Assembly (NCBI GenBank): GCA_022823605.1
Contig: JAJEHS010000003.1
Coordinates: forward strand, 62,001-126,000
DNA from: Paracoccaceae bacterium
GTDB lineage: Bacteria; Pseudomonadota; Alphaproteobacteria; Rhodobacterales; Rhodobacteraceae
DNA: 64,000 bases
Reading direction: 5' to 3'
Made by a program: the position numbers and the translations under genes. Positions 22,654-46,510 of this stretch are shown piece by piece. Under the pieces are notes generated by a model. The model searched no databases. It had not been told where the DNA came from and saw nothing but the letters and a program-made list of their open reading frames with translations. Within the stretch, counting starts at the first letter, position 1. Each line of letters begins with the position of its first letter.

Positions 22654-23403
22654 TTACTCACAGACGACACCGTCTCCATCCCCATCTCGCATAAATTTGT
22701 AGGCAGGGTGGGTTGCGTATACGGGTGCAATCTCTGCTTTTCGTGTTTCCTTGCAGGTAATTCTGCCATCTCCATTCTCGTCCCATTCAGACGTTGGTTT
22801 GGGGGAATAAGGAGTGCCTTCGTAAAATACCATTTGGAAGGAATCGCAGTTCTCGATTACCTTGTCAATCGCATTGGCTTCCTCTCGATCAATGGTCAGT
22901 TGATATTCCAGCCTGATCTGAATATTACGGTGGACAAACCAGCATTTGTTATAATGAGGTAGCCATTCGGCAGCATCAAAATAGCTTTTTTGTTGACGAT
23001 TGACTTCCGGACTGGCAAGTGTGAGGTTATCCAAGTCCGAGGCAAATTGGCGTTTGACCCTGTTGCTTCGGGCACAGAGACCACTGTCATGCGCTTCAAC
23101 GGTGGCAACCATATGCTCAATGTCCGTTTGTGAGGGAAATTTAAAGTATCTTCCCGTGTAAGGGGAATAAATCCTGCCGTCCATTGACCTTATGATCTCC
23201 AGTTCCACACTTTGTGGATATCGGTAGTCATTTCGGTCGTAGGGGGCACATCTGTTTTCCGGTGCAACCCTTAAACCTCGCCACATCTCCTCGGCAAACA
23301 ATAGACCAGAACCCAACCCAAGGACAACAAGCAACAAGAAGAATTTTTCTAGAAGATTCAGGTATACCCGCTCTGGAGCAAATGTCATTAAGTTACATTT
23401 CAT
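22654..23403 (-). CDS. exported HNH (DUF1524-like) nuclease with Excalibur domain
   Basis: This 249-residue protein has an N-terminal membrane or signal segment (about residues 15-37), then a GRIYSPYTGRYF element and an HNH-like core: DIEHMVATVEAHDSGLC, DLDNLTLASPEVNRQQKSYFDAAEWLP and a CWF segment. This order of EH, N-L-T and N-x-x-K is that of GmrSD-C/DUF1524-type HNH nucleases secreted by many bacteria. The C-terminus ends in an Excalibur-type calcium motif, MRDGDGDGVVCE. It converges on the M16 operon, three bases away. ATG 23403 is chosen over TTG 23412; neither has a clear ribosome site. Its biological role is unknown. Confidence 0.7.
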   Translation of the reverse strand: MKCNLMTFAPERVYLNLLEKFFLLLVVLGLGSGLLFAEEMWRGLRVAPENRCAPYDRNDYRYPQSVELEIIRSMDGRIYSPYTGRYFKFPSQTDIEHMVATVEAHDSGLCARSNRVKRQFASDLDNLTLASPEVNRQQKSYFDAAEWLPHYNKCWFVHRNIQIRLEYQLTIDREEANAIDKVIENCDSFQMVFYEGTPYSPKPTSEWDENGDGRITCKETRKAEIAPVYATHPAYKFMRDGDGDGVVCE

Positions 23404-23640
23404 ACATGGCAACGTATCATTATATGTACCGGAATGAAATGTGACCGGTCATGTTTATTGATTTCCGCTATAGTAATTCGATTAATCACTTGATTTATGA
23501 AAAATGCATCTGTGGTTAACTGATTTCAGAATTACGCCATCCCATATTTTATCTAGAAAATTCCCTTATAATGTTTAGGCTATGGGATTCAGATTTTGGT
23601 AAATGAATTTAACACTAATTGAGATATTAAGGAGATATTG

Positions 23641-31982: not shown

Positions 31983-32171
31983 ATTACCTCACTCAATCTG
32001 AAAATCGAATTTTGAAAATTTTATTGAAAAATCAATATAGATTTTTGAAATGAATGTGCATTAATTGGTTGAGGCACATTTCCAATCATTACCCTCACAA
32101 TCATTGACATTGGTAGCGTTATTAGTAATTAAATTTTGAACCGATGGAATAAGCCAAGGAAGACACTGGGT

Positions 32172-32975
32172 TTGCAAACGCAACGCTTAAAGGTAGATAC
32201 ACCCTTGCTAGAAGCAAGGAATGTATCAAAATATTTTGGAGCGGTAACGGCTCTAAGGGATGTTGATTTACAACTTTGGCCCGGTGAGGTATTGGGTGTG
32301 GTCGGGGATAATGGTGCGGGCAAATCAACACTTATGAAAGTCCTTTCTGGATTGTATCCACCAAGCAAGGGAAGTTTGCACTTCGACGGCAATGAGGTAC
32401 AGTTTCACAGTCCAAGAGATGCTCGCGATCTCGGTATAGAGATGGTCTATCAGGATCTTGCCCTAGCCGGCAACATGAACATTGCAGAAAATATTTATTT
32501 GGGTCGTGAACCCAAACGCAAGGTCCTGGGAGGATTGATATCACTGTTTGATCACAAGAAGGGTTTGCAAATGGCCAAAGACCACCTTGATAACCTGAAA
32601 ATACAAGTCAAGAGTGTGGAGCAAAAGGTTGAAGAACTGTCGGGAGGACAACGTCAGGCAGTTGCAATCGCACGTTCAATTGCATTTCAGGCACGGGTGG
32701 TCATAATGGATGAGCCTACAGCAGCTTTAGCCATCAAGGAGGTAGGTAAGGTTCTAGACATGATCGTGGGGCTTAAGGATCGGGGTATTTCGGTTGTAAT
32801 CATTAGCCACCGGATGGATGATATATTCTATGTTTGTGACCGAGTCATGGCCCTTTATCATGGAGCAAACTTCAGTGAGTCCCATCTCAAGGATACCAGT
32901 CGCAGTGAAGTCATCGGATGGATAATGGGTACCAAGGAAAATGTTAGGGAGTTGGCTCATGACAGAGTCAAGTAA
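32172..32975 (+). CDS. sugar ABC transporter ATP-binding protein, single-domain (FrcA-like)
   Basis: This 267-residue ATPase has a Walker A (GDNGAGKST), Q-loop (YQDLALAGNMN), signature LSGGQRQAVAIARSI, Walker B (VVIMDEPTAALA) and switch histidine (IISHR). It has one nucleotide-binding domain, unlike RbsA with two, resembling FrcA of the fructose importer FrcABC. There is no usable ATG. I favour TTG 32172, with AAGGAAG about nine bases upstream, over TTG 32136 with none. Order ATPase - permease - binding protein; the permease start overlaps its end by 17 bases. Confidence 0.93.
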   Translation: MQTQRLKVDTPLLEARNVSKYFGAVTALRDVDLQLWPGEVLGVVGDNGAGKSTLMKVLSGLYPPSKGSLHFDGNEVQFHSPRDARDLGIEMVYQDLALAGNMNIAENIYLGREPKRKVLGGLISLFDHKKGLQMAKDHLDNLKIQVKSVEQKVEELSGGQRQAVAIARSIAFQARVVIMDEPTAALAIKEVGKVLDMIVGLKDRGISVVIISHRMDDIFYVCDRVMALYHGANFSESHLKDTSRSEVIGWIMGTKENVRELAHDRVK

Positions 32976-33981
32976 TCACGAAATGAACAACGAGGTACCT
33001 TGGCATGTCCGCATGATTCCGTTTTTTGATCGTTACGGAATACTCATAGTTATCGTTGTTATGTGTCTGGTACTTTGGGCGATGCAACCTGAAGTATTCC
33101 TATCCTGGCGAAACATATCCAATATTTTCAAGCAAACGGCTGCCAATGGAATGCTCTCCATCGGGATGTTTCTGGTCATACTCACTGCCGGTATAGATCT
33201 ATCGGTTGGCTCGGTTTTGGCACTAGGAATGATGACCCTGGCAGTCTCAAACGCCTCCGGGGTTCCTTGGCCAATTGTCCTGTGTCTTTCACCTGTGATG
33301 GGGATGCTGGCCGGTTTCGTGAATGGTGTTGGCATAACCAAACTTAGAATGCCACACCCCTTCATTATGACTTTGGGCATGTTGTTCATGGCCAGAGGAT
33401 TGGCCAATCTGATATCGGGTGGCGTACCATATTCCGGACTTCCCGACCCTGTCAGGTTTCTGGGATCTGCCCAAATTTATCTTGGTGAATTTGACGGAAC
33501 CAGATATAACCTCCCAATTGTCTTTCTCTTCACCATATTCGTTTATTTGGTATTTTGGATTCTGCTTGAACATACTGTATTCGGGCGGCGTGTATATGCC
33601 ATTGGGGGAAATCCTGAAGCAGCCCGGGTGAGTGGCATTAATGTTGATCGAACCCTGATAATCGTCTACACGATTTGCGGCTTTATGGCCGGCGTTGCTG
33701 GGCTGATTATGGCTGGCCGAACCAATTCGGGTTTTCCAAATGCCGGTCAAGGGATGGAACTCGAAGCAATAGCCGCAGTCATCATCGGAGGGGCAAGTTT
33801 TTTTGGTGGTCGTGGCCAGGTATTGGGAATCTTTGGCGGTGTACTTATCATGGGACTAATCAGAAACGGGTTAAACCTCAATGATGTAAGTACCTTTTGG
33901 CAACAGATACTTATCGGAGGCATCATTGTCCTTGCCGTGTTCATTGATGTTCTTCGCAGAGATTGGGGAACAAGAAGTTAA
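32959..33981 (+). CDS. sugar ABC transporter permease (RbsC/FrcC family)
   Basis: This 340-residue membrane protein has about nine membrane segments and the RbsC marks ILTAGIDLSVGSVLAL, PHPFIMTLGMLFMARGLANL, VYAIGGNPEAARVSGINV and AVIIGGASFFGGRGQVLG. ATG 32959 lies inside the end of the ATPase gene and has AGGGAG seven bases upstream; an earlier in-frame ATG at 32941 lacks one. It forms the channel for the binding protein encoded next. The family transports monosaccharides and polyols. Confidence 0.94.
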   Translation: MTESSNHEMNNEVPWHVRMIPFFDRYGILIVIVVMCLVLWAMQPEVFLSWRNISNIFKQTAANGMLSIGMFLVILTAGIDLSVGSVLALGMMTLAVSNASGVPWPIVLCLSPVMGMLAGFVNGVGITKLRMPHPFIMTLGMLFMARGLANLISGGVPYSGLPDPVRFLGSAQIYLGEFDGTRYNLPIVFLFTIFVYLVFWILLEHTVFGRRVYAIGGNPEAARVSGINVDRTLIIVYTICGFMAGVAGLIMAGRTNSGFPNAGQGMELEAIAAVIIGGASFFGGRGQVLGIFGGVLIMGLIRNGLNLNDVSTFWQQILIGGIIVLAVFIDVLRRDWGTRS

Positions 33982-34066
33982 AATATCCAAATAGTTTCAA
34001 ATCTAGCCGGAATTGTGTTAACAATTGCTAATCAAAATACGATTTGTTTTTATAAGGGAGATTTTT

Positions 34067-34981
34067 ATGAAGCGAATTATTGGTTTAATTGCAGTCATTG
34101 CAACTGGCTTGTTGATGACTGTATCGAGTGTATCAGCTCAGAAAATCGTGGTCAGCATGAAAGGCCCCGGTGCTGGTAATCCATTCTGGGCTGCGGTTCA
34201 AAGGGGAGCCGAGGAAAAGGCTGCGGAACTGGGTGTAGAAGTCGTTGTTTTGGCACCTCCCACCGAATCAGATGTACCTGCTCAAATTGCCCAGATTGAG
34301 GATCAATTGGTTAAGGGTGCTGCCGGTATCGTACTGGCCCCGACTGATCCAAATGCATTGGCTCCAGTAGTGGATGAAGCCATAGCTGACGGTGTTCCTG
34401 TTGTCTTTGTTGACACCAAGGGCGCCAATGAAGGTGTGACCTATATCGGAACGGATAATGAAACTGGAGCATCTCTTGCAGCAACCCATATCTGTGAAAA
34501 TGTTTCAGCAGGATCTGACGTAGCGATTCTCCAGGGTATCATTACCCAATCTACTGGTAAGGCCCGAGCCGATGGATCCAACGCGGGATTAACCGCCTGT
34601 GGACTTAATATTGTTGCAGAACAGACGGCTGAATGGGATCGTGCTAAAGGTTTGGCTGTAATGGAAAATATCCTGACCGGCAATCCCAATTTGAAAGCTG
34701 TCTTTGCCAGCAACGACAATATGGCCTTGGGTGCCATGGAAGCAATCAAGAATGCAGGTATGCTTGGAGACATCTTTGTTGTCGGCTTTGATGCCAACCC
34801 TGATGCTGCAGAAAGTGTATTGGCCGGGGAAATGGCTGCCACGGTTGCACAAAACCCTTACAATATGGGGGCAATTGGGGTTGAAAGCGTAGTGAGCTTG
34901 ATCAATGGTGGATCACTTGATCCAGTTATTGATACGGGAACAGTTTTGGTTACCGCAGAAAACGCTGCCGACTACCAATAA
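34067..34981 (+). CDS. sugar ABC transporter substrate-binding protein (RbsB/FrcB-like)
   Basis: This 304-residue periplasmic protein has a signal peptide ending at SSVSA-QKI and the Peripla_BP_4 fold: VVSMKGPGAGNPFWAAVQRGAEEKA (two pieces), IVLAPTDPNALAPVVDEAIADGVPVVFVD, THICENVSAGSDVAILQG, and AVFASNDNMALGAMEAIK. These match ribose/fructose-type binding proteins. ATG 34067 follows AAGGGAG. It ends the operon and is followed by a strong hairpin. The imported compound may feed the nearby kinase and enolase-like enzymes, but that is only inferred from proximity. Confidence 0.92.
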   Translation: MKRIIGLIAVIATGLLMTVSSVSAQKIVVSMKGPGAGNPFWAAVQRGAEEKAAELGVEVVVLAPPTESDVPAQIAQIEDQLVKGAAGIVLAPTDPNALAPVVDEAIADGVPVVFVDTKGANEGVTYIGTDNETGASLAATHICENVSAGSDVAILQGIITQSTGKARADGSNAGLTACGLNIVAEQTAEWDRAKGLAVMENILTGNPNLKAVFASNDNMALGAMEAIKNAGMLGDIFVVGFDANPDAAESVLAGEMAATVAQNPYNMGAIGVESVVSLINGGSLDPVIDTGTVLVTAENAADYQ

Positions 34982-35299: not shown

Positions 35300-36823
35300 A
35301 TGGCAAGAAAGTCGTCTCGTGCAGGGGGAAGGGCTGCAAGAGTTGCAAAAAGGGTCGCCGAGGAACCGGAAGTAAATCCAGCACCCCCAGGTCAGATTGG
35401 TGGACAGTACAAACCTCTAACTGAAGAGGGTATTCGAAAAATCTATGACAATGCCCTGAAGTTTCTGGAAGAATTGGGAATGGGAGATGCTCCTGATTTT
35501 CTGGTTGATGCCTGTGTCAAGAAAGGTGCACGCGTCAATTCGCTGGGGAGATTGTGTTTTTCCAGGTCAATGATTGAGGACATCATATCCGGGGCTGCCA
35601 AGAAAATAACCCTGAATGGCAGGGATGAAACCCGGTCCATTGAAGTTGGTGGCAACAAGGTTCACTTCGGAACCGGCGGCGCAGCTGTACAAACCCTTGA
35701 TATTGATACCGGGCTATATCGCCCTTCAACCCTGCAGGATCTTTACAATTTTACCCGTTTACAGGATAAGCTCAACAACATCAGCTGGTTTGCCAGATGT
35801 TGTGTTGCAACGGATTTACCAAATAATTACGATTTGGATGTCAATACAGCCTTTGCACTGGCCAAGGGCACAACAAAACCGGTAGCCACTTCCTTCTTCA
35901 TTCATGAACATGTAGAGCCTGTTGTAAAGATGTTTGACATGATTTCAGGAGGCGAGGGGAAATTCAGCCGAAGGCCATGGTGTTTTGTTCACATCAGCCC
36001 GATAATTTCTCCTTTCAAGTATGGTCAGGATGCTGTTGAAGTCTGCCAGCAATGTATACGGCATAACCTGCCGGTAAATTGTATTACGGCAGCTCAATCT
36101 GGGGCAACGGCACCCGCTCCACCGGCCGGATTTCTGGTAACTTCAGTGGCGGAAACACTGGCTTCCCTTGCCATGGTGAATTGCTTCAAGCCGGGTTATC
36201 CCATGGTCTTTTCCAATTGGCCGTTTGTCGTGGACCTGAGAACCGGAGCCTTTTGCGGTGGAGGTGGTGAAACGGCCATCATGAATGCTGCCAGTGCCCA
36301 AATTACCAATTGGCTCGGGCTTCCATCGGGTGTTGCCTCCAGCATGAGTGATGCCAAGGCGGTTGATGCCCAAATGGGAGTGGAAAAGGGAATTACCGCC
36401 CTGTCAGCTGGTTTGGCAGGAGCCAACATGGTTTTTGAGAGCAGCGGTATGATGGCCTCTATTTTGGGTTGTTCGTTTGAAGCATTCATCCTAGATAATG
36501 AGATGCATTCCCATATTTACCGATCTATCCGAGGTATTGAAGTCAATGATGACACCATCAGTTATGATGCCATAACCGATGCAGTATTGGGAACAGGGCA
36601 TTTTCTGGGAGATGGTGTAACGATGGCGGCAATGCAGCGCGATTACTTCTATCCAAGCATTGCCGATCGTGACCCCCCGATATCTTGGGCAGAGAGGGGA
36701 GCTCCCGACATCTGGCATATCGCCAAGGAAAAAGTTCGGGATATTCTGGATAATTACTATCCAGTGTATATTCCCTCTTCAGTCGAGGAGGAAATCAAAC
36801 GCCACTACAGCATCTTCATTTGA
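35300..36823 (+). CDS. trimethylamine methyltransferase (MttB) family protein, pyrrolysine-free
   Basis: This 507-residue TIM-barrel protein matches the MttB superfamily (VHFGTGGAAVQTLDIDTG, ISPIISPFKYGQDAVEVC, SMSDAKAVDAQMGVEKGITALSAGLAGANMV in two pieces, GIEVNDDTISYDAI, GTGHFLG, ending with many charged residues). The frame is open throughout, with no in-frame TAG, so it belongs with non-pyrrolysine members such as MtgB that demethylate quaternary amines (glycine betaine, carnitine, proline betaine). A basic, disordered N-terminus (MARKSSRAGGRAARVAKR) is unusual. GGAGG lies upstream of ATG 35300. No cognate corrinoid protein gene is nearby. Substrate inferred only. Confidence 0.9.
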   Translation: MARKSSRAGGRAARVAKRVAEEPEVNPAPPGQIGGQYKPLTEEGIRKIYDNALKFLEELGMGDAPDFLVDACVKKGARVNSLGRLCFSRSMIEDIISGAAKKITLNGRDETRSIEVGGNKVHFGTGGAAVQTLDIDTGLYRPSTLQDLYNFTRLQDKLNNISWFARCCVATDLPNNYDLDVNTAFALAKGTTKPVATSFFIHEHVEPVVKMFDMISGGEGKFSRRPWCFVHISPIISPFKYGQDAVEVCQQCIRHNLPVNCITAAQSGATAPAPPAGFLVTSVAETLASLAMVNCFKPGYPMVFSNWPFVVDLRTGAFCGGGGETAIMNAASAQITNWLGLPSGVASSMSDAKAVDAQMGVEKGITALSAGLAGANMVFESSGMMASILGCSFEAFILDNEMHSHIYRSIRGIEVNDDTISYDAITDAVLGTGHFLGDGVTMAAMQRDYFYPSIADRDPPISWAERGAPDIWHIAKEKVRDILDNYYPVYIPSSVEEEIKRHYSIFI

Positions 36824-36879: not shown

Positions 36880-38175
36880 TCAAAGCCCCCACCAGGTATT
36901 CAGTAGGGGAAGGGAACCTGCAAAACTACCTGTCCCAAGTATTTCCTCAATTCTGAGACATTCATTCCATTTGGCCATGCGTTCCGATCTTGAAAAGGAT
37001 CCGACCTTGAGTTGTCCACAACCAAGCCCCGTAGCCAGATGAGATATGGTTACATCTTCGGTTTCCCCTGAACGGGCTGAAACGATGGTATTCCACCCGA
37101 TGGACTCGGCAACTTTGTATGCTTCAATCGCCTCAGTTACTGTTCCGGCCTGGTTAACCTTCAGCAGCAGGGAATTACAGGCTCCTTCTTGATGTGATTC
37201 CCTCACCAATTGTCCGGAAGTTACCAGATAATCATCCCCGACTATTTGGTATTTTTTCCCAAACCTTCTTGTGAATTCGATCATCCCTTCAGGATCATTT
37301 TCCGCCATTGGATCTTCTATCGAAACAATGGGGTACGCAGCCAACCATCCTCCCAGAATCTCAATCCATTGTTCGGCAGTATATTCCTTGCGTTCTAATC
37401 CCAACCGATACATGTTGTTCCGATAGAATTCCGAAGATGCAATATCAAGGGATATAACCACACGATCGCCAGGTTTTTCTCCAACCTCTTCCATGGCCCT
37501 GACAAGCATTTCCAATGCTTCCTCATTACTATCGAAATCAGGCCACCACCCACCCTCATCGGCAACACCGGCCAATTTCCCTTTCTGTTTGAGTAATGAT
37601 CCTGCACAGTGATAGATTTCCGAAGTAACCTCCAACGCTTCGGCAAAACTTGAAGCCTTGGGAACCATGATCATGAAATCCTGTATATCAACCCTGTTGG
37701 AAGCATGGGCTCCTCCTCCAAATATCTGAATTTCAGGTAGCGGTACAAGTGGTTTTGAATCTGTAATCCTTGAGAATAGTTTCCAAAGGGGAACCCCCTC
37801 AGAACGTGCCCAAGTGTTATAAAGTGCCAATGAAATTGCAACCAGGGTATTGCCACCGTAATTCGATTTTTGTCTTGTCCCATCCTCAGCAATAAGTAAT
37901 CGATCAATGTCAGCAGCTTCATCAAGGTTTCTTCCAATCAACCGAGGACTTATCTCGCTTGCAATCACTTGCAGCGAGCGGTTTACATCCTTCCCCTGAA
38001 GGGATTGTCCTCCATCTCTCAATTCAATTGCTTCTCTTTTGCCTTTGGAAGCTCCAGCTGGAGCAAGACCTCGTCCCAAGATGCCATTGGAAGATTCAAC
38101 CTCAACCTCAACCGTTGGAAAACCTCTTGAATCCCAAATTCTTCTGGCTCTTATATTTTGAATCTTTGCTGTCAA
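36880..38175 (-). CDS. enolase paralogue with altered active site
   Basis: This 431-residue protein has the full enolase fold and keeps the metal and acid/base residues: H157 in GGGAHASN, E207 in DEGGWWP, D244 in SLDIASSEF, E287 in SIEDP, D314 in VGDD, K339 in LLLKVNQ and K390. Several otherwise strict residues differ: GGxHADN reads GGAHASN, QEFM reads QDFM (D166), SHRSGETED reads SARSGETED (A367), and the KTGS motif reads KVGS. It may therefore act on something other than 2-phosphoglycerate. It follows the kinase gene by eight bases in one operon and converges on the MttB-like gene. Confidence 0.85.
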   Translation of the reverse strand: MTAKIQNIRARRIWDSRGFPTVEVEVESSNGILGRGLAPAGASKGKREAIELRDGGQSLQGKDVNRSLQVIASEISPRLIGRNLDEAADIDRLLIAEDGTRQKSNYGGNTLVAISLALYNTWARSEGVPLWKLFSRITDSKPLVPLPEIQIFGGGAHASNRVDIQDFMIMVPKASSFAEALEVTSEIYHCAGSLLKQKGKLAGVADEGGWWPDFDSNEEALEMLVRAMEEVGEKPGDRVVISLDIASSEFYRNNMYRLGLERKEYTAEQWIEILGGWLAAYPIVSIEDPMAENDPEGMIEFTRRFGKKYQIVGDDYLVTSGQLVRESHQEGACNSLLLKVNQAGTVTEAIEAYKVAESIGWNTIVSARSGETEDVTISHLATGLGCGQLKVGSFSRSERMAKWNECLRIEEILGTGSFAGSLPLLNTWWGL

Positions 38176-38183
38176 GGCACAAG

Positions 38184-39191
38184 CTATCCTATACCGGAAA
38201 ATTGGGCATTGATGGTTGATTGAATAGAATTCTGTGGTGAAAGAATCAGGGGAATCACTATTTGCCTGACACCCTTCTCTTGGTCTGGGTTCAAATACTC
38301 AACCGGTGATTTACCATCCACTCTGGCCAGACCTAACATGGGAAGCAATTTGGCAACTCGTCGACTGAAATCCTGCTTGTTTTCCCAATGTACAAACTCA
38401 TTATAACACTCGAAGAAACTAAGGGCAGCTTCCTCCAAGCCCTTCTTGAATTGGGGAGAATAAACGGCCTTGAGAAAGAAATGGTTAAGACAAAAGGCCA
38501 CATCAAAAGCAGGTTCTCCCATTGTTGCACATTCAGCGTCAATCAGGATCGGTTCACCGGATTTCACAAGTATGTTTTTGGGTGATACATCGCCATGAAC
38601 CAAGGTTTTGTTAGCATCCGCCAGCTGTTTGGCCACTCCATCAAAAATGGGTTTGAGGTCAGGATGCTTGGAACCGGTATAAAGGATATAGGGTTCTATT
38701 CTCATGTGGTAAAACACATCCTTCTTCAAAAACTCGGAACTGTTGAACGTGCTTTCCCCGGTATGGGACTGAACTTTACCAAAGGTTTTTCCGACTTTTT
38801 CAGCAATAGAAACGTCGGGTGGAAATTTAAAAAGCTTTTCTTTCCAGACGAAACAATCATCACCGCCAACGTAATCCATGGCAAAACCACCGGATTTTTC
38901 GGAAAAACCAAACATTTTCGGGGTATTTTCGGGGATGATGGTTTCTGCCAGCCTTAGCCATTCATATTCACACTTGTTTCTGTAAACTGGAGCAAACCAA
39001 TCAGCTTCAACCCGCATTTTGGGAAGAGCAAATTTGGCACAGTATTTATGCTGGTCTGTTTCGACCAGGGCCACGTCCGAAGCAACACCTCCGGTAAGGG
39101 GTTTTACAGATTGAATCTGTGATTTATGCCTGATCAAGCCAAGATCCATCAATAGATCAGCAACTCTTTCATTCAAATTCACTTCAGTCAT
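38184..39191 (-). CDS. aminoglycoside-phosphotransferase/choline-kinase-like kinase
   Basis: This 335-residue protein has the protein-kinase-like fold of small-molecule kinases: nucleotide lysine in HKYCAKFALP, the catalytic loop HGDVSPKNILV and the metal loop PILIDAECATMGEPAFDVAFCLNHF (two pieces). It phosphorylates a hydroxyl of an unknown small molecule. ATG 39191 is chosen (MTEVNLNERVADLLMDLG); the longer frame from 39290 would add a hydrophobic stretch with no family support. It is the first gene of an operon with the enolase paralogue, suggesting kinase then dehydratase as consecutive steps. Confidence 0.85.
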   Translation of the reverse strand: MTEVNLNERVADLLMDLGLIRHKSQIQSVKPLTGGVASDVALVETDQHKYCAKFALPKMRVEADWFAPVYRNKCEYEWLRLAETIIPENTPKMFGFSEKSGGFAMDYVGGDDCFVWKEKLFKFPPDVSIAEKVGKTFGKVQSHTGESTFNSSEFLKKDVFYHMRIEPYILYTGSKHPDLKPIFDGVAKQLADANKTLVHGDVSPKNILVKSGEPILIDAECATMGEPAFDVAFCLNHFFLKAVYSPQFKKGLEEAALSFFECYNEFVHWENKQDFSRRVAKLLPMLGLARVDGKSPVEYLNPDQEKGVRQIVIPLILSPQNSIQSTINAQFSGIG

Positions 39192-44929: not shown

Positions 44930-45916
44930 TCATCCCCGCTGGTTCTCTTTTCTGGCCCTGAAGGCATTTAACGTTTTGCCTGAGGCAAAATCGTGCTTCG
45001 CCAGCACCTTCTGGATAGCCACCATGCACTCATCCCTTATAGTTTCGAGTTCCCTGACGGTCTTGCCTTCGGCCTGCTGGTTTGTACCAAATTCAAATTT
45101 ATCAAGCAAACCCTCGGTAAGTTTCGGTCCGTCCATGTTACACCAGGGCATGGTTAGGGTAGGGCCAAATTTTTCCATGAATTTTCTGGCCCCACCATCG
45201 CCTCCTGCCATCATGTAGAGTTGGTTCATACCCATGACTGCCCATCTTAGTCCCGGACCGTAAACAATACTCTCGTCCAACTCCCTGGTTGTGGCCATAT
45301 CCTCGTTGAGCATATGCAGGATTTCTCGCCACATTGCTTCTTGAAGGCGATTGGCTATATGAGCCGGAACCTCACGATTGACCATCAGCACTTGCATGCC
45401 AATGTCCTCATAGAATTCCCGGGCCATGTCTTTTGCCTGCTCAGAGGTCAATTTACCTCCCACGATTTCGACTAGTGGACAGAGATAAACGGGATTGAAC
45501 GGATGTCCCACGATAAATCGTTCCGGATGTTTCAGATCTTTTTGAAGGTCAGTAGGCAGAAAGCCCGAGGTGCTTGAGGAAATTACCACTTCTTTACGTG
45601 CTACCTCTGATACTGGTAGGAGAGCCTTTGTTTTCAGCTCCTCGATTTCAGAAACGCTCTCCTGGATAAAATCAGCCTTTTCAGCCATTTCCAGGGGATT
45701 GGTGGTGAATTCCAGCTTTCCCGGGGGCGGCAAGGGTATTCCCTCGGTCAACAGAGAAAGGGCCTGTCTGGAATTGTCAATGGAATCCCGCAACCATTTT
45801 TCCATGGCCGGGTCAAAATCAGCTGCGATTACATTTACACCACAGTGAATGGCTCTGGCGGCCCAACCCCCACCAATGACACCTGTACCAAGTAGTCCGA
45901 GTGTTTTCACGCTCAT
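44930..45916 (-). CDS. L-carnitine dehydrogenase
   Basis: This 328-residue protein has the NAD-binding motif LGLLGTGVIGGGWAARAIH at the start and the 3-hydroxyacyl-CoA-dehydrogenase-like catalytic region SSSTSGFLPTD ... GHPFNPVYLCPLVEIVGG ... PAHIANRLQEA. The combination and length fit the bacterial L-carnitine 3-dehydrogenase branch (CdhA/LcdH), which oxidises carnitine to 3-dehydrocarnitine. It lies two bases after a thioesterase gene, as in known carnitine loci where betainyl-CoA thioesterase releases glycine betaine. The BKACE-type enzyme (CdhC) that should act between them is not seen in the window. Confidence 0.85.
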   Translation of the reverse strand: MSVKTLGLLGTGVIGGGWAARAIHCGVNVIAADFDPAMEKWLRDSIDNSRQALSLLTEGIPLPPPGKLEFTTNPLEMAEKADFIQESVSEIEELKTKALLPVSEVARKEVVISSSTSGFLPTDLQKDLKHPERFIVGHPFNPVYLCPLVEIVGGKLTSEQAKDMAREFYEDIGMQVLMVNREVPAHIANRLQEAMWREILHMLNEDMATTRELDESIVYGPGLRWAVMGMNQLYMMAGGDGGARKFMEKFGPTLTMPWCNMDGPKLTEGLLDKFEFGTNQQAEGKTVRELETIRDECMVAIQKVLAKHDFASGKTLNAFRARKENQRG

Positions 45917-45918
45917 GT

Positions 45919-46422
45919 TTATTGCTCCCGCTTTTTGTTATTGATATCGAGTTTTCTGGAACGATGCATCAAGCCTGCAAGATACTCCGCTGGAACGATC
46001 CTTGATTGCAGTTCACGGTAGATTGTATCGGGAAAGGATTCGGCCTTGGGAGTTCCTCTTTGGGATACATGCAATTGCATACTTTCACAAATGGCCACCA
46101 ACTTACCTGCTGACTGCATTTTCTGGTAAAGGTGAATTCTTTTGGTGTCAGAATTCAGAACGAAGGTTTGAATATCGAGTTCGGCAAACATCTTTACTTC
46201 CAAAAGGAAATAATTGTGAAACTCCAAGGCATAGACAGTATTTCGTTCCCGCTTTCGGTATTCAGCTCCCAAACCGGTTTCTTCCTGGAACTTGTCCACG
46301 GCGAGGCTAAAGGCCAGTGAATAAAATGAATCACGCATGTGATCATTATAATCAACCCAATGTGGATGAACTTTTGTCTGGTAGGTTGATGCCAAGGGAA
46401 TTACTGGATCGTCTTGTTTCAT
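45919..46422 (-). CDS. thioesterase, betainyl-CoA thioesterase-like
   Basis: This 167-residue hotdog-fold protein begins near STYQTKVHPHWVDYNDHMRDSFYSLAFSLA, which holds the V-x-x-xW-D-xND-H-M catalytic stretch of 4HBT-type thioesterases and of the thioesterase half of carnitine-degradation proteins. It would hydrolyse betainyl-CoA to glycine betaine. ATG 46422 is chosen; TTG 46455 would add 11 residues. It is the first gene of a two-gene operon with carnitine dehydrogenase, which supports the specific substrate. That assignment is from context, not from sequence alone. Confidence 0.8.
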   Translation of the reverse strand: MKQDDPVIPLASTYQTKVHPHWVDYNDHMRDSFYSLAFSLAVDKFQEETGLGAEYRKRERNTVYALEFHNYFLLEVKMFAELDIQTFVLNSDTKRIHLYQKMQSAGKLVAICESMQLHVSQRGTPKAESFPDTIYRELQSRIVPAEYLAGLMHRSRKLDINNKKREQ

Positions 46423-46510
46423 TTTGAACTCGCTTTTTCTTATCCTCTTGACCAATAATTATTTTCGCTAGAAGAAGGTAATATTTTTGGCGTTTCAATC
46501 TTTGGTGGAT

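Follow-up and report, generated by a model that had tools for sequence, protein, structure and literature searches.

The gene for an enolase-fold protein that lies immediately downstream of a small-molecule kinase gene, and that departs from enolase at positions which are usually strict, raises the question of whether it encodes the housekeeping enzyme of its genome or a paralogue acting on a different substrate. The window analysed here, a stretch of 64,000 nucleotides from a Paracoccaceae bacterium (GCA_022823605.1, contig JAJEHS010000003.1, positions 62,001 to 126,000), carries both genes (Table 1), and their placement in one operon, eight bases apart, by the preliminary description is borne out by the open reading frame coordinates, with the kinase stop codon ending at 38184, the enolase start at 38175 and positions 38176-38183 between them. 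The mechanical ORF of the kinase extends further, to 39290, with a TTG start. The kinase is assigned to the APH family (PF01636, 46.8 bits; Pfam cut-off 23.2) and its residues K53, D201, N206 and D218 are invariant in an eleven-row alignment, the last three of which we take to be the catalytic Asp, Asn and Asp of the family. Four named relatives of the kinase are encoded in Rhodobacteraceae MAGs, which presumably derive from sponges, and on this basis the class of the window is taken to be Alphaproteobacteria. Both enolase domains are recognised in the second protein (Enolase_N, 132.1 bits; Enolase_C, 301.5 bits; Pfam), which also scores 448.3 bits against the NCBIfam enolase equivalog TIGR01060, above its cut-off of 300. 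Structure models built from five-sequence alignments reached mean pLDDT values of 42.8 and 46.8 and were too poor to use.

Table 1. Positions in the window of the kinase-enolase pair, of three active-site codons and of two neighbouring features
Feature	Position	Strand	Details
APH-fold small-molecule kinase, first gene of operon	38184..39191	-	335 aa, ATG start
Enolase paralogue, second gene of operon, 8 bases downstream	36880..38175	-	431 aa, TTG start
Codon of D166 (E167 in E. coli enolase)	37678..37680	-	D in 58/58 linked rows, E in 22/22 canonical rows
Codon of A367 (H369 in E. coli enolase)	37075..37077	-	A in 58/58 linked rows; canonical rows H in 21/22, E in 1/22
Codon of K339 (= catalytic base K341 of E. 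coli enolase)	37159..37161	-	K in 86/86 rows
Sugar (ribose-type, CUT2) ABC importer: ATPase, permease, binding protein	32136..34981	+	Pfam; NCBIfam below equivalog cut-offs
MttB-family protein, converging on the pair	35300..36823	+	PF06253, 348.7 bits

Had the genome encoded no other enolase, the protein would, according to the preliminary description, simply have been the housekeeping enzyme. A second, canonical enolase is encoded on a different contig, at C4:180337-181188, and scores 417 bits, compared to 302.7 bits for the paralogue. Across the 56 kinase-bearing genomes the Enolase_C scores are bimodal, with a canonical enolase in 54 (368-451 bits), the paralogue in 52 (51 at 248-317 bits and one as a fragment at a contig end) and both kinds in 50. 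The two genomes without a full canonical match (G291 and G328) are 63 % and 78 % complete, and all 45 high-quality kinase-bearing genomes encode the canonical enzyme. The presence of a canonical enolase in its own genome and in 54 of the 56 rules out the paralogue as the housekeeping enolase; the kinase and the paralogue are a conserved pair. Four genomes (G004, G040, G356 and G377) contain the kinase without the paralogue. In public records such paralogues are labelled 'phosphopyruvate hydratase'. A third enolase is found in genome G089 (L113, G089:C16:26200-28200), in which Glu replaces His at position 367, while Glu is kept at position 166.

Three changes at usually strict positions had been reported for the paralogue, namely HASN at 157-160, QDF with D166 and SARSGETED with A367. 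The changes from Glu to Asp at 166 and from His to Ala at 367 stand, while HASN is uninformative and was rejected as a meaningful change, because column 159 varies in both enolase sets, being S, G, A, R, H, Q or D in the linked set and any of D, N, R and S in the canonical rows shown. In a residue table of 38 columns and 86 enolases (67 non-canonical and 19 canonical rows), Asp occupies position 166 in all 67 non-canonical rows and Ala position 367 in 66, the single exception (L045) being an Enterobacter plasmid ORF that is enolase-like but degenerate, whereas Glu is found at 166 in all 19 canonical rows and His at 367 in all except L113. Asp166 and Ala367 also occur together in diverged Rhodococcus, Methylobacterium, Persicobacter and haloarchaeal rows. 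Most linked enolases also have Trp at 211 (50/80 tree rows) and Gly at 153 (51/80 tree rows), with Ala and Asn, respectively, in the 19 canonical rows. E207 is kept in all linked rows except L045. In yeast enolase, His373 mutants are impaired to differing degrees.

The three metal ligands (D244, E287 and D314) and the catalytic lysines (K339 and K390) are retained in the paralogue, as the preliminary description had claimed, as are the equivalents of the phosphate ligands, H157, R368 and S369 (H158, R370 and S371 in E. coli). According to the available part of a report on the E. coli enolase-SF2312 complex, the inhibitor hydroxyl analogous to the C3-OH of 2-PGA contacts Glu167, Lys392 and His369, the carboxylate mimic is held by Gln166, Asp316 and Lys392, the phosphonate by Ala40, Ser371, His158 and Arg370, and Lys341 is the base (PMC6863902). 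Comparison of the paralogue with the contacts named in that part of the report, Ala40 excepted, revealed differences only at Glu167 and His369, replaced by D166 and A367, so that the head-group ligands are kept and two of the three C3 contacts are changed. The altered residues had been thought to contact both the phosphate and the hydroxyl of the substrate; this holds for the hydroxyl equivalent to the C3-OH, but the residues that bind the phosphate are unchanged, as judged from the same part of the source (PMC6863902).

In the enolase tree, 58 linked and 22 canonical rows are split by a single branch (SH-aLRT 99), and the paralogue does not group with the canonical enolases in this unrooted tree, which was built by a quick method from an alignment whose trait columns had in part been masked or taken out, and with canonical rows mostly from the window's class. 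Its 80 rows are those of the residue table with the addition of three canonical and two linked rows and the omission of eleven (L095, which is partial, the degenerate L045 and nine others, mostly close relatives of kept rows). The paralogue of the window belongs to a clade of 15 rows (SH-aLRT 100 and 99 in two trees).

The paralogue is closely tied to the kinase in its distribution. Using profile cut-offs of E <= 1e-40 for the kinase and E <= 1e-160 for the paralogue, the former was found in 39 and the latter in 33 of the 385 genomes of the class sample (Fisher p 5.6e-42, with kinship ignored), and none of the 33 paralogue-bearing genomes lacked the kinase. The six other kinase-bearing genomes comprise three with no paralogue (G040, G356 and G377), two with a diverged paralogue adjacent to the kinase (G117 and G384) and one in which the contig ends (G328). 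In the phylum sample the kinase was found in 9/398 genomes at 1e-90. Seventy-three loci were examined, made up of the window's own, 14 from relatives, 34 from the class, seven from the phylum and 17 of 32 kinase-bearing plasmid records. The paralogue lies within the stretch at 66/73 loci, on the opposite strand within about 9 kb of the kinase at seven of them and on the same strand with a gap at two. The two-gene order, for which the preliminary description had proposed a search of other genomes, recurs as immediate same-strand neighbours at 57/73 loci. Among the seven loci without the paralogue, the contig end truncates its start at L048, and it is encoded elsewhere in the genome at L069 and L074. 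Beyond the 73 loci, the adjacent pair is also found on two more of the 32 plasmid records, those of Persicobacter and Rhodococcus opacus G13. Linkage and both residue changes recur in the Pseudomonadota, Actinomycetota, Bacteroidota and Halobacteria; this pattern is more than chance, and the pair is an old module of a kinase and an enolase paralogue. Judging by listings, no description of it was found in the open-access literature searched, from which subscription journals are mostly absent, so that this is weak evidence of absence. The Enterobacter chuandaensis plasmid locus L045 (NZ_CP097174.1, 10208-24115), where the degenerate enolase-like ORF has Lys at 207 and accompanies a kinase relative, also encodes a D-2-hydroxyacid dehydrogenase-like protein, an aminotransferase, two iron-redox enzymes, peptidases and an MFS protein, and looks like a small-molecule biosynthetic cluster.

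These distributions bear on the simplest account of the paralogue, that of a spare enolase of ordinary specificity with two tolerated changes, next to a kinase of unrelated role. The retention of the other catalytic residues checked and the score above the TIGR01060 cut-off would fit such an isozyme. Nevertheless, the nesting of paralogue occurrence within kinase occurrence, the fact that both changes are strictly conserved throughout a deep tree and the retention of a canonical enolase in every high-quality kinase genome make this account very improbable.

The reading preferred here, to which we assign a probability of slightly below one half, is that the two genes encode a two-step 'phospho-dehydratase' for a (2R)-2,3-dihydroxy acid, in all likelihood a sugar acid, that is larger than glycerate. 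The kinase would phosphorylate the C2 hydroxyl of this acid, and the paralogue would bind the resulting 2-phospho-carboxylate head in the manner of enolase, with K339 taking the C2 proton and the C3 hydroxyl being expelled. The predicted product is a substituted phosphoenolpyruvate, the enol form of a 2-keto-3-deoxy acid, which might then be used or hydrolysed. The C3 side of the pocket may have been remodelled to accommodate the carbon chain, through the Glu to Asp and His to Ala changes and usually through aromatic residues that follow GG in the E207 loop. The earlier proposal of a hydroxy acid as the kinase substrate agrees with the evidence, the substrate itself being putative.

Gene context within 8 kb of the kinase, labelled by BLAST against a reference panel picked from some of the loci, distinguishes the clade of the window from the remaining loci. 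In comparing its 19 loci with the 54 others it should be considered that the 19 are not independent, six belonging to the window's genus, that L095 was placed in the clade by similarity and context and not by the tree, and that L026, from the window's genus and without paralogue, is counted among the 54. The clade often occurs with sugar importers, LacI regulators and enzymes of fucose and rhamnose routes: FAH hydrolases (7/19 vs 6/54), SDRs (8/19 vs 4/54), LacI regulators (7/19 vs 4/54), CUT2 permeases (7/19, four of the seven in the window's genus, vs 0/54) and UgpC-type ATPases (9/19 vs 5/54, a label that may cover importers of other substrates). Two kinds of neighbour had been suggested as suppliers of the substrate. 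In the clade, a sugar ABC importer is repeatedly found near the pair, and the CUT2 importer of the window is a possible supplier. The MttB-family gene, found near the pair at 5/73 loci (5/19 clade loci vs 0/54 others), is a poor guide to the substrate since it is confined to the window's genus and absent at the same-genus loci L026 and L027, and it is probably unrelated to the pair; MttB and carnitine genes were likewise rejected as general partners, being near the pair only in that genus. The importer ATPase of the window (32136-32975) has 279 aa, roughly half as many as RbsA-type models (about 500), and matched their first half only. Two genes at 44930-46455, encoding carnitine-dehydrogenase-like and thioesterase-like proteins, correspond to two parts of the PRK07531 model, and the product of 22654-23412 carries a C-terminal Excalibur calcium-binding domain.

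The solved protein closest to the FAH hydrolase of clade locus L038 is L-2,4-diketo-3-deoxyrhamnonate hydrolase (8gsr, 269 bits), and the FAH hydrolase scores 342.3 bits against the FucG/LRA6 hydrolase model NF053535, under its cut-off of 500. The SDR encoded after it is nearest to BDH2 and to five L-KDF 4-dehydrogenase entries, identified by the PDB codes in the available part of PMC11199699. SDRs that are 60-66 % identical to it are encoded at L039, L047 and L095, while a different SDR is present at L031, L049, L050 and L085. In route 3 as set out in that part of the source, the dehydratase FucC makes a 2-keto-3-deoxy acid, which FucF and FucG convert to pyruvate and lactate (PMC11199699). 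On the basis of this order of steps and the FucF/FucG-like neighbours, the pair stands where FucC could stand, and in the window's clade its product may feed a FucF/FucG-like route of a 4-dehydrogenase and a diketo-acid hydrolase to pyruvate. In a Pfam count of 125 neighbouring ORFs from 14 clade loci, which dropped ORFs below 150 aa and unlabelled ones rich in R, A, G, P or H, no sugar-acid dehydratase family was among the commonest 25 of 94 families.

Several results do not favour the sugar-acid reading. A dehydratase gene, sought by similarity to eleven reference proteins, lies near 1/7 pair-linked FAH genes and 8/43 other such FAH genes (p 0.63), the latter comprising 40 chosen among the matches listed (144/385 genomes had a match) and L127-L129. 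The notion that the pair fills a missing dehydratase is not supported by this control. A dehydratase match was present at five of the 15 control loci having an SDR match of at least 45 % identity. Besides its enolases, the genome of the window contains six MR-type and four IlvD-type matches, and thus has no dehydratase gap to fill. Neither in the window nor in its close relatives are FAH and SDR genes neighbours of the pair, and the FucF/FucG-like pair of the window's genome is located elsewhere, on C4 at about 583 kb. No dedicated enzyme for the enol phosphate was seen. The four of 56 genomes with the kinase and no paralogue also speak against this reading.

Outside the clade the surroundings differ. 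A D-2-hydroxyacid dehydrogenase of the phosphoglycerate, glyoxylate or hydroxypyruvate reductase kind is encoded near the kinase at 27/54 of these loci, compared to 0/19 in the clade, and PEP carboxylase at 5/54, again compared to 0/19. In Rhizobium, Rhodococcus, Cupriavidus and Paraburkholderia the pair is accompanied by FAH hydrolases, a D-2-hydroxyacid dehydrogenase and an HpaD-like VOC protein, annotated Rhizobium plasmids carry ppc, dehydrogenase and kinase genes in a row, and two haloarchaeal pair loci stand among MR-type enzymes. The PEP carboxylase neighbours fit PEP itself as the product at those loci, and the row of ppc, dehydrogenase and kinase genes thus favours D-glycerate as the substrate there. 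The kinase would then be a glycerate 2-kinase of a novel type, and the paralogue a dedicated enolase making PEP, with D-glycerate supplied by the dehydrogenase or by a diketo-acid hydrolase. The enolase equivalog score of the paralogue would be expected, an aminotransferase nearest BhcA (below its cut-off) occurs near the pair at L032, and a kinase that makes 2-phosphoglycerate could occur alone, as it does in 4/56 genomes. However, a second enzyme for 2-phosphoglycerate is needless in the 54/56 kinase genomes with a canonical enolase, two C3-OH ligands are strictly changed, the clade of the window lacks the dehydrogenase as a neighbour, and no glycerate kinase model in Pfam or NCBIfam matches the kinase at E 0.001. 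Three classes of glycerate kinase are counted in the available part of a 2007 study (PMC2063504). In view of the null dehydratase control and the ppc context, the glycerate module retains about a quarter of the weight and is a serious alternative, though less likely than the sugar-acid reading.

Some of the same loci, at which the pair occurs together with PEP carboxylase, a D-2-hydroxyacid dehydrogenase and an HpaD-like dioxygenase (below cut-off), could also be explained by a different leaving group, with an amine, sulfonate, aryl or heteroaryl group lost from a 2-phospho-3-substituted propionate to yield PEP. The changed residues are those near the C3 leaving group, as far as the contacts in the available part of the SF2312 report indicate, but the sugar-linked loci of the window's clade do not fit and, L045 apart, every linked row retains E207, which renders this alternative improbable.

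Enolase proper is generally regarded as a housekeeping enzyme with one substrate. That a second, altered enolase accompanies a kinase of its own in distantly related bacteria and in some archaea suggests an unrecognised breakdown of sugar-like acids. It may tentatively be proposed that a widespread and undescribed form of sugar-acid dehydration exists, in which ATP-dependent 2-phosphorylation by an APH-fold kinase is followed by elimination by an enolase paralogue with a rebuilt C3 pocket. If so, the pair would perform the work of a sugar-acid dehydratase while making a high-energy enol phosphate from which ATP is recoverable, and this strategy would occur in several bacterial phyla and haloarchaea. 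The linked kinase and the signature of Gln-Asp and Ser-Ala-Arg-Ser-Gly would allow such genes to be distinguished from enolase on their sequence alone and pathway models to be corrected, and would provide enzymologists with a defined pair to assay, and the pair forms a natural test of the residues that set enolase specificity at C3.

Compared with known systems, the paralogue shares with enolase (EC 4.2.1.11) both domains, the metal ligands, the base lysine and the carboxylate and phosphate ligands checked, but differs in two of three C3-hydroxyl contacts in all 58 linked rows, in its pairing with a kinase, in its position on the other side of the tree and in its co-existence with a canonical enolase. 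With the non-phosphorylating L-fucose/L-rhamnose route (FucC, FucF and FucG/LRA6) the clade shares FAH hydrolases of the FucG/LRA6 kind at seven of its 19 loci, four of which also have a FucF-like SDR, whereas FucC uses the free acid, and the control on its putative replacement by the pair was null. The kinase belongs with MtnK, one of the two solved proteins matched by its profile, to the APH family (PF01636), but has its own conserved motifs and an enolase-family partner gene, and scores 45.7 bits against the methylthioribose kinase model (TIGR01767), under the cut-off of 275. Finally, the serine cycle includes a segment of hydroxypyruvate reductase, glycerate 2-kinase, enolase and PEP carboxylase, and the same activities are likely at the loci with dehydrogenase, kinase, paralogue and ppc genes, with the difference that here the kinase belongs to the APH family and the altered paralogue takes the place of the enolase.
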